NCBI GenBank assembly: GCA_004295245.1
Contig: REAR01000067.1
Coordinates: 1 to 54,898, forward strand
Length of the DNA stretch: 54,898 bases
Direction of reading: 5' to 3'
Source: Sphingobacteriales bacterium
GTDB taxonomy: Bacteria > Bacteroidota > Bacteroidia > Chitinophagales > Chitinophagaceae
The notes beneath the pieces were generated by a model. That model searched no databases, was not told the origin of the DNA, and was given only the letters and a program-made list of their open reading frames with translations. A program made the translations under genes and the position numbers. Below, in pieces: positions 8,904 through 16,744 of the stretch; positions within the stretch are counted from its first letter, which is position 1; the number at the start of each line of letters is the position of its first letter.

Positions 8904-9606
8904 TTATTTAAACATTAGTTCTTTTACTTTTTCTTTGTCTTCTTTTTCTTTCTTAAGATCAAACATAGTTCCAAACAATCTATCCCAAATGGTGGTGCTT
9001 ACGCCAAAACCCTGGTGCTCATTTTTATAATGATGCAGGTGATGGTTGCGCCATAATGGTTTCATCCATTTAAAAGGAGGGTTCCAGGCATGTATGGCAT
9101 AGTGCATGGTGCCATACATAAGATAGCCTATTAAAAAGCCGGGAAAAAACATAAAAGCACCTTTGCCAGCCACCAAATACATAATTGAAAAAATAGCTGA
9201 GGCAAGAATAAGACTGGGCACTGGCGGCATAAAAAGGCGCTCTTTATCTCTAGGAAAATGATGGTGGTTGCCATGAAAGGCGCTCTTTATCTCTAGGAAA
9301 ATGATGGTGGTTGCCATGCAATACATATGCTATTTTCTGAATGCGGGGGTTCTCGCTTACCCAGTGAAAAACAAAGCGGTGAAAAAGATATTCAAATAAG
9401 GTCCAAAAAAGCATGCCCCCAAAAAAGGTAGCTGCCATTCTGCTGTAAGAATATAAAAACGTGTTACTGCTGTAGTATAGCAGAAAAAAAATAATTGGCA
9501 GGTACATACCCCAAATTACCAATGGGTGTGTTTTGGTAAGCATTTCAAGATAATTGCTCTTAAACAAACGAGCCTGACCTTTATTATTAATTTTTTCAAA
9601 ATGCAT
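8904..9606 (-). pseudogene. Fatty-acid hydroxylase/sterol desaturase family gene, frameshifted by a 43-bp tandem duplication
   Basis: The N-terminal half (9606 down to about 9250) has membrane helices and the histidine motifs HRFVFH and HGNHHHFPRDKERL. The C-terminal half (about 9300 down to 8904) repeats HGNHHHFPRDKERL in another frame, then carries HYAIH and HHLHH. Together these are the eight-His diiron motifs of the membrane fatty-acid 2-hydroxylase family. The frame is broken by an exact 43-bp tandem duplication (9233-9275 and 9276-9318). Removing one copy leaves 660 bp, an uninterrupted 219-aa protein of normal length. As given, no full-length product can be made. The enzyme would hydroxylate fatty acids or sphingolipid acyl chains. 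Confidence 0.88.
9233..9318. repeat. Perfect 43-bp tandem duplication inside a coding region
   Basis: Copy 1 is 9233-9275 and copy 2 is 9276-9318. They are identical and directly abutting, both starting AAAGGCGCTC and ending GGTTGCCATG. Forty-three is not a multiple of three, so the duplication shifts the frame of the hydroxylase gene. Confidence 0.97.
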
Positions 9607-9751
9607 ATTGCCTCTTTTTTGCACTGCAAAGATAAACTGAAATTGCTAAAAATATTTTTACTGCAGGTATTTAACAAACAGAATCTGTATCAATTTTGTT
9701 TACAAGTAAACTTTGTAAGTGATAAGTGTAAGGTATTGGGTGTGCTTTGTG

Positions 9752-12486: not shown

Positions 12487-13410
12487 TCAGGCAGTTGCTT
12501 CAAGGGCTGCTGGTGGTATAACCGGCAGGTCTGTACCGGGTGTTTCGGGCAAATCATCATGATGCAGTTCGATGCGCCGGGTAATATCTTGTAAGGAGCT
12601 TAAACGCTGAACGGTATAAGGTATGGTATCTAACCCTGAAACAAACTTGAGGATGTAGTAATAAATGCCAATGAGGTCTCCGGCTAAAATAGCTGTGCTG
12701 TTTTGTTGGGTGCTTATTAATAAGGAAATACCAATGACCACCATTACAATAATTTCCATGGCTCCAAAATTCCATGCTTCGCGGTCTGAGATTTTTATTT
12801 GCCATTTACGCAGGTTATTGTAGTGCTGGCGTATTAAGTGTGTATTGCCGGTGGTAATGATATCTACCTGTTTTTCCAATTCATCGTTTTTTACTCTATT
12901 CAGCAGTTTCATTTTTCTGCCATATAAAAAACTGAGCACGGCAACCGGTAGCAGCATTATTAAACAAATACTTACTACAGCGCTATCGTAAAAAAATAAT
13001 AATATCAGCGAGCCGAATAGGTTGTAAACGGCCTCAATAATGTATACAAGATCGTATTCTAAAAAATCTACAAACTCTCGTGCCAGTGTAGAATGTGCAC
13101 TTAGTTTAGAAACCTCGGCCTGTTTATAGCGTCTGCTAAGAAAGCGGGTTACCAGTGATGTGTAAATAGAAGAATAAGTGCGGGTATCATACATATGGCG
13201 CAGGGTGCCTATTACTAACCATACAATATGTATTATGCTAAGTATAATTAAGCCCTTGTAACTGCCTTTTATAAGATCATTTACTGCATTGCCTAAAAAG
13301 AAGGGGCGCAAAAGTGTGCCCAGCATTTCTAATGCAAATAGGGTATAAGTAAGTATTAGTTTACTTCTGTGTTGTAGTACCAGCTTTTTTAAAATATCAA
13401 ATCTCGACAT
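12487..13410 (-). CDS. Stand-alone ABC transporter six-helix membrane domain protein
   Basis: The 307-aa protein has an exporter-type ABC transmembrane domain. Helices are visible near residues 16-36, 52-72, 134-155, 157-173 and 238-258, with TLARE and the intracellular-loop style segment VDIITTGNTHLIRQ. There is no nucleotide-binding domain: no Walker A, signature or Walker B motif appears here or downstream before the repeat at 12430. This resembles the ABC_membrane_3 type family rather than a truncated exporter, because the frame ends naturally after a Pro-rich tail. It lies 95 bp downstream of the ATP-grasp-SET fusion on the same strand and is probably in its operon. Transport, partner ATPase and substrate are unknown. 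Confidence 0.8.
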   Translation of the reverse strand: MSRFDILKKLVLQHRSKLILTYTLFALEMLGTLLRPFFLGNAVNDLIKGSYKGLIILSIIHIVWLVIGTLRHMYDTRTYSSIYTSLVTRFLSRRYKQAEVSKLSAHSTLAREFVDFLEYDLVYIIEAVYNLFGSLILLFFYDSAVVSICLIMLLPVAVLSFLYGRKMKLLNRVKNDELEKQVDIITTGNTHLIRQHYNNLRKWQIKISDREAWNFGAMEIIVMVVIGISLLISTQQNSTAILAGDLIGIYYYILKFVSGLDTIPYTVQRLSSLQDITRRIELHHDDLPETPGTDLPVIPPAALEATA

Positions 13411-13505
13411 AGCCTTTCGTTTTCAAAACATTCAAAAAAATAGGGTTCCTCAGCAACTGTTGTTACTGTTTTTTTTGAATTAATGGGCTTGTAAGACCGG
13501 GATTA

Positions 13506-14948
13506 TTACTCGCCGTTTAACACCCGTGCTTGTTTTTCTCTTTTGGTTATAGAGTTTTTAGCACTACCTGTTACCAGGCCACGGCATTTACGGCTTCCAC
13601 ACCGGCATTCGAAAGGCTCCATATTCTCATCATCCAGCATAGATGCGTAATCGAGGGTTAGCTCTTCGCCTTTTTTGATATTTCTGAGGGCTATTACATT
13701 AAGCCCATCGTAGGCTGTATTGGGTTGGCAACTGTGGTTCTGAGGCGCCCATCCGGTGGGATCTTCATCCCAGAGCAAAAATACTTCATTGCTTACAGGA
13801 TAAGCATAACGCCTGAAAATTTCTTTTTCTTCTTCGTTCCAGTTAAGGTCTACATAGCGGCGGGTAACCAAGCGTTGAGAACGCTCTTCTCCCCTGAAAA
13901 TCAACTCTCCGGAACGAATGATGCGGTTGGCATAAATGCCATAACCAGCTATTGAATTGCCTTTTACGGCGTAATTTTTTAGTTTGCGCCTATGGCGGGC
14001 AATGCCTTCATTAATGATATGTTCTAAAAAGCCAGCCTGACCAATGCCATCAAATTTTAAAATAAAATCAGCAGATCCTTCATAGCCATCGGTATAAAAA
14101 ACGGAGCAGGTAAAGTTTATTTCAAGAAAATAGATTGTTCCTTTATCGTTTACTCTAAAGTCTAAACGGGCATAACCCACGCCATTAAACCCTTTAAATA
14201 TTCTTTCTGCGGCAGCTTTTAATTCTTTTTCCAAAGCAGGGTCTTCGCAAGGAAAATTACAGTCCGGATGCAGTTCAGATGTTTTTAAAGCATAGGTTTT
14301 AAAACTACGACCGGCCGGAAATTTATACTCAACTGGCTTAAACACCGTACAGCTTCTTTCTTCTTCATTAGCTGCCAGTAAAACAGTAAACTCGCGGCCG
14401 GCAATATATTCTTCTACTAATAAGGGGCCGTATTCATCCAATATTTCGGCAATCTTACTTTTCAGCTCTTCTTTATTCTGTACTAATGAGCGATCATCCA
14501 CACCCAAACTATCACCTGCTTTTGCTGGCTTCACAAACAAAGGATACTGCAGTTGCTTTTCTACTATTTCTGCATCGGTTAATTTTTCTACCAGCACATA
14601 ACCCGGTGTGTTTACGCCTTCACAAAAAGCAACATATTTCATTAATTCTTTGGTGGGGTCGTATAACTTGGCGCTGGGGCCGGTGTGTGGCAGGTCTAGT
14701 AAATCAAAACTGTGTATTACGTCAATTGAGGGAACTTCCCATTCTAAATAACCTTCGCAAAGGTTTACAAAACAATCGTAATTTTTTTTCTTTAACTCCT
14801 TTAACTGTCTATAAGTGGTAAGCTTGTTTAAGAATACGTGGTCTACAATATGCCCCGGTAAAAGCGGAGACAGGTTTCTTGGCGGATCATAATTTTTATA
14901 ATCAACACCTGTGGTAGAATAGTCTGGTTGCAGTACACAAATCTTCAT
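13506..14948 (-). CDS. ATP-grasp ligase fused to a SET methyltransferase domain
   Basis: The 480-aa protein has two domains. Residues 1 to about 310 form an ATP-grasp ligase related to D-Ala-D-Ala ligase. It has ATP-lysine segment PLFVKPAKAGDSLGV, VEEYIAGREFTVLLAA and the metal-binding ARLDFRV...YFLEINFTC with the E-x-N pair. Residues about 325-470 form a SET domain: SIAGYGIYA (S-adenosylmethionine site), NHSCQPN, GEELTLDYA with the catalytic Tyr, and a post-SET Cys cluster CRCGSRKC. ATP-grasp enzymes join a carboxylate to an amine via acyl phosphate; SET enzymes methylate lysine side chains. One chain carrying both suggests ligation and N-methylation of the same small molecule or peptide. 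The start at 14948 (MKICVLQPDYS) suits the fold. Confidence 0.85.
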   Translation of the reverse strand: MKICVLQPDYSTTGVDYKNYDPPRNLSPLLPGHIVDHVFLNKLTTYRQLKELKKKNYDCFVNLCEGYLEWEVPSIDVIHSFDLLDLPHTGPSAKLYDPTKELMKYVAFCEGVNTPGYVLVEKLTDAEIVEKQLQYPLFVKPAKAGDSLGVDDRSLVQNKEELKSKIAEILDEYGPLLVEEYIAGREFTVLLAANEEERSCTVFKPVEYKFPAGRSFKTYALKTSELHPDCNFPCEDPALEKELKAAAERIFKGFNGVGYARLDFRVNDKGTIYFLEINFTCSVFYTDGYEGSADFILKFDGIGQAGFLEHIINEGIARHRRKLKNYAVKGNSIAGYGIYANRIIRSGELIFRGEERSQRLVTRRYVDLNWNEEEKEIFRRYAYPVSNEVFLLWDEDPTGWAPQNHSCQPNTAYDGLNVIALRNIKKGEELTLDYASMLDDENMEPFECRCGSRKCRGLVTGSAKNSITKREKQARVLNGE

Positions 14949-15052
14949 AAATAACAAACGGGCTCACTACTAATTTAAAGTAGTAATGAAGTTAAAAGAA
15001 TATGATTGAATAATAAATTTATAAAGCGCTTTTATTGTAATTAATTTTTGTT

Positions 15053-15108
15053 GTAACCAGCTATATAACCCTAATGTACTACTGTTGCGTCGCACCCTGC
15101 AACTGCAG
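15053..15108 (+). repeat. Intergenic repeat, subtype A
   Basis: Arm GTAACCAGC at 15053-15061, then core GTTGCGTCGCA at 15084-15094 followed by CCCTGCAACTGCAG. It lies between the two ATP-grasp genes. Confidence 0.8.
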
Positions 15109-15120
15109 CACACTAATCAG

Positions 15121-16218
15121 CTACTTTAAAGAATGCCGTTGCCATGCATCTGTTAATATTTCAATTACTAAACTGCTAAAGCTTTTGCCTGCAAAGCGTA
15201 AAATAGCACCAATAGAAGTATAATCTTCATCATCACTTAAACCACACTGTGCATTTACTTCTAAAATATATAGTTGGCCTGTTTTACTATCCATGCGAAT
15301 ATCTAACCTGCCGTAGCCAGTACCCTTTACAGCAATATAAGCTTGCAGGCTAATGGTATGTAAAGCACTTACAAGTGTAGCTGCTGGCTGATGATACTCA
15401 TAAAAATTGCCATTGCCAGGCATGGGTGTTTCTTGTTCATATATTTCCCACAACCGGTCGAAGGATAAAAATTTTTCTGTTTCTGGTAACGATGCATGAA
15501 AGATGCGTTCTACCGGCGGGTATACTATACATTCATCTGGTTGCTGGTAAGAGCCTACAATAAAAGTGGTAAACTCCGGACCGCTTATAAATTGTTCTGC
15601 AAATAAACCACCGGTGGTTAATTGCCAGCCCCGGTATCCTTCATTCAATTCTTTAATGCGGTCAACCAGCTCTTCATTTGTATGCACTACGTTTTTTACA
15701 GATACCCCCATACTGCCCCCAGAAATTGCAGGTTTAATAATAATGGGGGCACCTAACTTTTCACAAACACCAGTAACATCTTTCTCATTACCTGTCAAAA
15801 CAGTCCATGCAGCATTGGTAACCCCGTGTGCATCAAAAGCCTGCTTCATTGGTATTTTAGAAGTAGTAATGTCGTAGAAATAGGCAGAAGCACCGGTATA
15901 AGCCAATTGCTGTTTTTCCAGTTCATAAATAACTGAAATGCCAGGCGTGCTATTAATTTCATCTCCATCGCAAAGGTTTAATACCAATGGAATCAAACCA
16001 TCGCTTTTGGTTTTTATAGTGCCAATAACTTCTTTAAAATTTTGCAGGGTTACTGGTTGCCATTGCCAGTTTGCGTGTAACTCATTAAATACAGCGGTGT
16101 ATTCTTTCAGGCTTTGAGAGAAGTCATAATAGTACTGCAGGTTGGGGTCTTCTGTTTCCAGATAGGGAACCAATACCCAAATCTTCAGCCGCGATAATGG
16201 TAATGTAAAATCAGTCAT
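15121..16218 (-). CDS. ATP-grasp ligase (D-Ala-D-Ala ligase-like)
   Basis: The 365-aa ATP-grasp protein has APIIIKPAISGGSMGVSV (ATP-binding Lys), FAEQFISGPEFTTFIVG, and GYGRLDIRMDS...LYILEVNAQCG with the metal-binding E-x-N. The early part contains VLNLCDGDE and TGASAYFYDITTSKIPMKQ, as in D-Ala-D-Ala ligases. The substrate is unknown. I choose ATG 16218 (MTDFTLPLSRLKIWVL), which begins 10 bp after the SET gene's stop; the longer frame from 16260 would overlap that gene by 32 bp. It is the separate-gene counterpart of the ligase half of the fusion 170 bp downstream. Confidence 0.82.
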   Translation of the reverse strand: MTDFTLPLSRLKIWVLVPYLETEDPNLQYYYDFSQSLKEYTAVFNELHANWQWQPVTLQNFKEVIGTIKTKSDGLIPLVLNLCDGDEINSTPGISVIYELEKQQLAYTGASAYFYDITTSKIPMKQAFDAHGVTNAAWTVLTGNEKDVTGVCEKLGAPIIIKPAISGGSMGVSVKNVVHTNEELVDRIKELNEGYRGWQLTTGGLFAEQFISGPEFTTFIVGSYQQPDECIVYPPVERIFHASLPETEKFLSFDRLWEIYEQETPMPGNGNFYEYHQPAATLVSALHTISLQAYIAVKGTGYGRLDIRMDSKTGQLYILEVNAQCGLSDDEDYTSIGAILRFAGKSFSSLVIEILTDAWQRHSLK

Positions 16219-16228
16219 CGTTTCGGGC

Positions 16229-16744
16229 TCACACTCTTTGCTGGTTGTTGCTGCGTGCATGCAGTTGGCTTTGTATAAAATGGGTTAATTTATAGGTGTT
16301 AATTTGTGCGGGGGTAAGATAAGCGGCTCCTTTAATTTCTCCCAAACAATGAATGCTGCCGCAAAAGCATTTAAAAGATTGAACCATGTCCCACTCGGTT
16401 GATGGATAGAAGAAAGTTAATTCGTCGCCTTCTTCCACATCTTGTAATGCGGTTAGTTGGTAGAGGTGTGTATCAAAGAAAACATTGGGGCTGCAACTGT
16501 GGTTAATAAATTGAAGAAAAGTAGGTTCAAGAGTTATATGGGTATTTGTGCCTACCTGAACTGTTAAATAAGTGGGATGATTTTGTGTTTGCCCCGGATA
16601 AAATGGGGCTATTACTTCACCCGACTTAACAAACCGGTTAGCGAATAATGCCTTTTGCCGGGTTATTTCATTAAGTTTTACTGTTACGATGCCGTGGTTG
16701 CTTACAGGGCTGTAAACGGCATCAATGGGCGGGTTAGTATTCAT
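16229..16744 (-). CDS. SET-domain protein (putative protein-lysine methyltransferase)
   Basis: The 171-aa SET protein has KALFANRFVKSGEVI in place of the usual GxG segment, INHSCSPN for cofactor/pseudoknot binding, and GDELTFFYPSTEW, where the common D-Y pair is replaced by F-Y, keeping the Tyr. A post-SET cluster CFCGSIHC follows. Its downstream neighbour begins 10 bp after its stop and encodes an ATP-grasp ligase, so the pair reproduces, as two genes, the domain content of the fusion protein at 13506-14948 in the opposite order. The methyl acceptor is unknown; histones are absent, so a small molecule, peptide or another protein is the target. Confidence 0.82.
   Translation of the reverse strand: MNTNPPIDAVYSPVSNHGIVTVKLNEITRQKALFANRFVKSGEVIAPFYPGQTQNHPTYLTVQVGTNTHITLEPTFLQFINHSCSPNVFFDTHLYQLTALQDVEEGDELTFFYPSTEWDMVQSFKCFCGSIHCLGEIKGAAYLTPAQINTYKLTHFIQSQLHARSNNQQRV

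Follow-up and report, generated by a model that had tools for sequence, protein, structure and literature searches.

SET-domain proteins and ATP-grasp ligases form a conserved gene set in Bacteroidota that may make a small amino-acid-derived product

A compact SET-domain protein, an ATP-grasp ligase and a protein that fuses both kinds of domain make up a gene set that is conserved across many genera of Bacteroidota, and we consider it rather more probable than the alternatives taken together that this set is a pathway in which a small product derived from amino acids is ligated, methylated and, at least in some lineages, exported. A small-molecule product is probable because the compact SET protein, here called the split SET, stands nearer to a methyltransferase acting on free methionine than to histone enzymes. 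The set was found in a window of 54,898 nucleotides, the whole stretch of DNA analysed, which is one contig (C60) of a 3.37-Mb Bacteroidota assembly (G000). On the minus strand, the gene order is split SET, separate ATP-grasp, ATP-grasp-SET fusion and a membrane gene of the PF13748 family:

16744-16229, minus strand: split SET, 171 aa (PF00856, Pfam E 1e-9), a compact SET domain with post-SET cysteines and without a SET-I insert
16218-15121, minus strand: separate ATP-grasp ligase, 365 aa (PF07478 Dala_Dala_lig_C, Pfam E 8e-16)
14948/14957-13506, minus strand: ATP-grasp-SET fusion, about 480 aa (PF07478, E 2e-23; SET, E 2.5e-11)
13410-12487, minus strand: ABC six-helix membrane protein, 307 aa (PF13748 ABC_membrane_3, E 1.5e-46)

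Gene calls and Pfam matches confirm these four same-strand genes, which had been proposed earlier in a sequence-only reading of the window. The ATG of the separate ATP-grasp is at 16218, exactly 10 bp past the stop of the split SET, just as that reading had it. The fusion carries a Ddl-like ligase at its N-terminus (ATG 14948), and a SET domain with a SET-I insert and post-SET cysteines at its C-terminus. The view that the same domain pair occurs here in a split and a fused form is correct at the level of Pfam families, but does not extend to descent, as the tree assigns the two SETs to different lineages. Elsewhere in the window (8904-9624, minus strand), a perfect 43-bp tandem duplication causes a frameshift in a fatty-acid-hydroxylase-like gene, which as a consequence appears as two overlapping ORFs; the duplication is either a real lesion or an assembly error.

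Of 99 genomes sampled from the family of the window (98 genera), 34 encode all three of the split SET, the separate ATP-grasp and the fusion, and none of the three turns up in any of the other genomes. Most of the set-bearing relatives go under the label Chitinophagaceae or Bacteroidetes bacterium. Fusion orthologues within the family share 62-77% identity, compared to 37-57% in other families. The separate ligase lies no more than about 1 kb from the fusion in all 34, and the split SET is part of the same cluster in 31. In the remaining three (G022, G054 and G094) it is displaced to a position next to ordinary genes, leuS and ruvB among them, with leuS as the neighbour in the G022 and G054 lineages; no extra pathway genes were found near these displaced copies. 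Since the displaced SET genes still co-occur with the other two, the association rests on more than linkage. Fourteen of the 99 genomes, each of which belongs to the 34, have the PF13748 gene; it adjoins the fusion in 13 and is unlinked in one. Nesting of this kind has a chance of 3.7e-8 assuming independent genomes, a figure that is made optimistic by their relatedness. The arrangement is well above chance. As such, the notion that the four genes might not be conserved together falls away, because the neighbourhoods in relatives do keep the set together, with PF13748 as an accessory.

Other families carry distant versions of the set. In one of these (G304), the SET-ATP-grasp pair and the fusion are on different contigs, yet they co-occur. 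In a distant genus of another family, with a fusion 38% identical to the one in the window, the split SET is followed by the fusion, then by an ABC exporter and lastly by another small SET, and the separate ligase is absent. This exporter is complete (PF00664 and PF00005) and is present in five of the 61 genomes of its family, all of them fusion-bearing; in the sixth genome with a fusion, the contig stops just past that gene. Two further families (G303 and G428) have the fusion without split SET and separate ligase. Among the relatives searched, no fusion was found on a plasmid.

What do these versions tell about export? The membrane protein of the window was matched by PF13748 and PF00664 only, and no nucleotide-binding domain (PF00005) was detected by Pfam, which agrees with its initial description as an ABC six-helix membrane domain without an ATPase. 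The accompanying suggestion that this domain moves the product can be retained in part: a link with transport is supported because the distant version bears a complete ABC exporter, but the PF13748 gene itself is not a fixed fourth member, being present in 14 of the 34 genomes. The distant full exporter is therefore better evidence for export than the PF13748 gene. Proteins of the latter family that lack an ATPase also adjoin TetR regulators in Cronobacter, Pantoea and Embleya (L103, L107 and L102), neighbours that suggest small-molecule handling. These enterobacterial and actinomycete proteins resemble the one in the window in family, in length and in having no ATPase domain, but they stand alone beside TetR, whereas the copy in the window's family follows the fusion gene. 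The lack of an ATPase, and the occurrence of PF13748 alone beside TetR in other phyla, count against export of a small molecule by this protein. No described function for PF13748 was found.

SET enzymes are usually regarded as protein-lysine methyltransferases, and the sequence-only reading had accordingly assumed lysine N-methylation. For the split SET this was not borne out. When it was searched with phmmer against solved structures, BurB was the best match (E 5e-13, with the next at 3e-6), and a profile of 37 split SET orthologues matched BurB with an E of 2.5e-20 over profile positions 18-146, the next match reaching 6.4e-9 over the C-terminal part only. The AF2 model of the split SET (mean pLDDT 80) aligns to BurB with a Z of 13.5 and an rmsd of 3.7 over 129 aligned residues, with 28% identity over the structural alignment, compared to a Z of 10.7 for ASH1L, the best histone-type enzyme. 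In the tree, the split SETs are united in a single clade (99/96), whether they come from near or from distant clusters, and this clade is grouped with BurB-like and further bacterial SETs (96/77), apart from the fusion SETs (100/98). Judged by both sequence and predicted structure, the split SET belongs to a BurB-type clade and is nearest to BurB, not to the histone methyltransferases. BurB of Burkholderia thailandensis (2020; structure 2025, PDB 9L4T/9L4V) is a bacterial SET acting on a free amino acid, a methionine S-methyltransferase that turns free methionine into S-methylmethionine (PMC7496086; PMC12542666). With such an enzyme as the closest relative, lysine-amine chemistry is not to be assumed for the split SET.

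Both proteins are compact SETs without a SET-I insert, and both have the active-site Tyr, the post-SET cysteines and a Q-x(5)-H and Y-x-x-T-E signature. The three signature residues (Q63, H69 and E117 in window numbering) are present in all 20 split SETs compared, in BurB and in six bacterial relatives, and each of them in none of 18 fusion SETs; three further SET proteins encoded elsewhere in the window genome likewise have none of the three. The SAM-type active site is intact, with H82, C84, Y113, C126, C128 and C133 invariant in the 20 split SETs. The absence of the D from the D-Y pair, already noticed in the window protein, is real: an F replaces it in all 20, while the Y is invariant, so that its loss is a trait of the family and not decay. 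There are differences as well. The split SET shows the canonical NHSC (in all 20) and FY, to which LHSC and DY correspond in BurB. The partners of BurB in the bur pathway are BurI, BurD and BurE, compared to ATP-grasp ligases for the split SET; across about 50 neighbourhoods of the set, no gene of the BurI, BurD or BurE type was conserved. Furthermore, BurB binds methionine through main-chain atoms (PMC12542666), and kinship with it therefore suggests a small substrate without naming one. This mode of binding, together with the difference between LHSC and NHSC, argues against reading the substrate from sequence.

S-methylmethionine made by BurB leads on to DMSP (PMC7496086, PMC12542666), and the grouping of the split SET with BurB brings up an osmolyte or stress compound derived from S-methylmethionine along a similar route, which the ligases would conjugate or store. 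We consider this improbable: the decarboxylase, aminotransferase and aldehyde dehydrogenase of bur have no conserved counterpart near the set, the motif is NHSC and not LHSC, and methionine as the substrate is not readable from the sequence.

The SET domain of the fusion is of a different kind. It aligns with the histone-type lysine methyltransferases KMT2A/MLL, NSD1 and ASH1L in having a SET-I insert, NHSC, DY and the post-SET CxC...C, and in profile comparison it matches KMT2A over the full length. Unlike these enzymes it is bacterial and forms one chain with a ligase; the split SET does not belong to this type. Because the fusion SET comes from this different, histone-type lineage, the two SETs did not arise by a recent duplication. 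Their different lineages in the tree also led us to reject, for the SET halves, that a single ligase-SET pair was simply duplicated.

The SET-I insert and the histone-type nearest kin of the fusion fit a peptide or protein substrate, and as such speak against a small molecule. They give rise to the reading that a cellular protein receives an amino acid from one or both ATP-grasps, and that the SETs methylate the added residue or a lysine of the protein, the whole being an analogue of a tubulin-ligase-type (TTL) enzyme that carries a SET domain. Such an analogue exists in eukaryotes, where TTLL12 unites a SET-like and a TTL (ATP-grasp-type) domain in one chain (PMC3520985). The domain order of TTLL12 is the opposite, however, its ligase is TTL-type and not Ddl-type, and its authors report that it is without critical residues and showed no methylation or tyrosination activity in vitro (PMC3520985); TTLL12 is treated here as an analogue, homology having appeared in no test that was run. 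Moreover, the ATP-grasps of the set are Ddl-type, joiners of small amino acids, the split SET is BurB-type, and linkage to a full ABC exporter is ill-suited to an intracellular protein mark. Modification of a protein stays the chief rival due to the histone-type fusion SET and the analogy with TTLL12, but we find it unlikely.

One arrangement bears on this rival from the side of the neighbours. In one of the families without split SET (G303:C3, L095, 3662-9413), the fusion lies about 0.4 kb from genes for an FGase (N-formylglutamate amidohydrolase), a MATCAP-type peptidase and a glutathione-synthetase-like ATP-grasp. MATCAP proteins are peptidases of the tubulin tyrosine carboxypeptidase type. 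This combination would suit protein modification, but it was seen once.

Both ligases are nearest to D-Ala-D-Ala and Van-type ligases in sequence, and for the fusion this also holds in fold. Residues 1-320 of its AF2 model align to DdlB with a Z of 26.8 and an rmsd of 3.0 over 282 aligned residues at 22% identity; the fold matches listed for the fusion were all Ddl, so the comparison speaks to the ligase half. The ATP/Mg2+ site (Lys, Lys, Glu, Glu, Arg, Asp, Glu, Asn) is kept residue by residue in both ligases, the sole exception being one lysine of the fusion, at which the distant rows show a K/R change. Conversely, the D-Ala-binding motif PG[TS]xxS is replaced in both, with an altered substrate motif N-x-x-C-G in the separate ligase, and both have an invariant Cys at the position of the Ddl Pro. 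Of the catalytic triad, the Glu has disappeared from the fusion, and its position varies in the separate ligase. In the tree the two ligases group with each other (98/92), apart from Ddl and from rhizobial relatives, which supports a shared origin of the ligase halves, albeit one resting on long branches. They thus share the ATP/Mg2+ residues with Ddl and Van ligases, and differ from these in the Cys at Pro, in the triad Glu, in forming separate clades, and in being fused to or paired with a SET. Since the ATP/Mg2+ residues are kept, but the triad Glu and PG[TS]xxS are not, both appear to be active amino-acid ligases with a changed substrate site, and not cell-wall Ddl.

These features also weigh on peptidoglycan tailoring, in which the ligases would supply cell-wall precursors with a changed dipeptide end and the stem peptide would be methylated. 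The kinship with Ddl and Van ligases fits this, but the genome of the window carries its own ordinary Ddl, the substrate motif and triad Glu are gone or not conserved, and the neighbourhoods have neither a conserved van-type regulator nor a conserved carboxypeptidase. We regard this reading as very improbable. The presence of the ordinary Ddl also led us to reject a replacement of the cell's Ddl by either ligase.

A precursor peptide had not been seen between the genes, and this holds more widely. Small ORFs near the fusion were compared in 53 loci, and no family occurred in more than three; those reaching three were an acylphosphatase-like gene, its antisense reading and a short AT-rich ORF. 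A graspetide-type RiPP cluster was rejected, no conserved precursor-peptide gene being found beside the ATP-grasp in these 53 loci. Near the genes we found no SAM riboswitch or other Rfam element, and a promoter and terminator scan gave no more hits than shuffles. About 50 neighbourhoods contained no conserved decarboxylase, aminotransferase, NRPS or other biosynthetic gene, which counts against a small-molecule pathway.

On the other side, the identical co-occurrence in 34 of 99 genomes, the distant exporter, the kinship with BurB, the small-molecule contexts of relatives and the kept ATP/Mg2+ sites argue for a small molecule. For its substrates, order of steps, product and export we infer the following. 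With SAM, the split SET would transfer a methyl group to a free amino acid at its side chain; conversion of methionine to S-methylmethionine is the sole chemistry demonstrated in its clade. The separate ATP-grasp would convert a carboxylate to an acyl phosphate and join it to an amine, resulting in an amide or dipeptide-like product, and the fusion would perform a second ligation and a second methylation on this same product, with two active sites in one chain. Export would be carried out by the full ABC exporter in the distant genus, for which the ATPase-less PF13748 protein may be the counterpart in the window's family. A stronger version, which we put forward tentatively, is that the fusion acts as ligase and methyltransferase in a single chain on the same small molecule, within a widespread Bacteroidota pathway leading to an exported metabolite. 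If true, the fusion would extend small-molecule methylation by SET domains well past BurB.

The literature supports the initial impression that no characterised pathway has this set: nothing was found in the papers searched on ATP-grasp with SET in Bacteroidetes or in a biosynthetic cluster, although Iyer et al. 2009 (on ATP-grasp amidoligases) might mention it, and a combined query returned TTLL12 as the sole relevant match. While each enzyme family is known, their combination, and the association of a BurB-type SET with ligases across many Bacteroidota, appear to be new. These findings suggest that BurB-type SETs are a wider clade with a recognisable signature, standing beside amino-acid ligases in a conserved pathway of many genera. 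They also put in question the true methylation targets of bacterial SETs annotated as 'protein-lysine N-methyltransferase', and indicate an unknown metabolite.

Relatives of these proteins were also encountered in other bacteria. A SET with the BurB signature on a Tabrizicola plasmid (L106, 1124-6128) is in a row with genes for a GHMP kinase, a PLP-dependent enzyme, a DMT transporter and an alanine racemase, possibly another small-molecule pathway involving a SET. On plasmid p7 of Rhizobium bangladeshense (L109, 3871-5783), a BurB-like SET annotated as hypothetical is located between asparagine-synthase-like and S-adenosylmethionine decarboxylase genes, and on a plasmid of Sphingomonas paeninsulae (L114, 3399-5137) one overlaps a diaminopimelate-decarboxylase-type gene. 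A SET relative in Eleftheria is part of a PKS/aminotransferase cluster. Distant relatives of the ATP-grasps adjoin lysine 2,3-aminomutase genes in Thioflavicoccus and Mesorhizobium (L112 and L117), and the one in Thioflavicoccus is also beside diaminopropionate biosynthesis genes.
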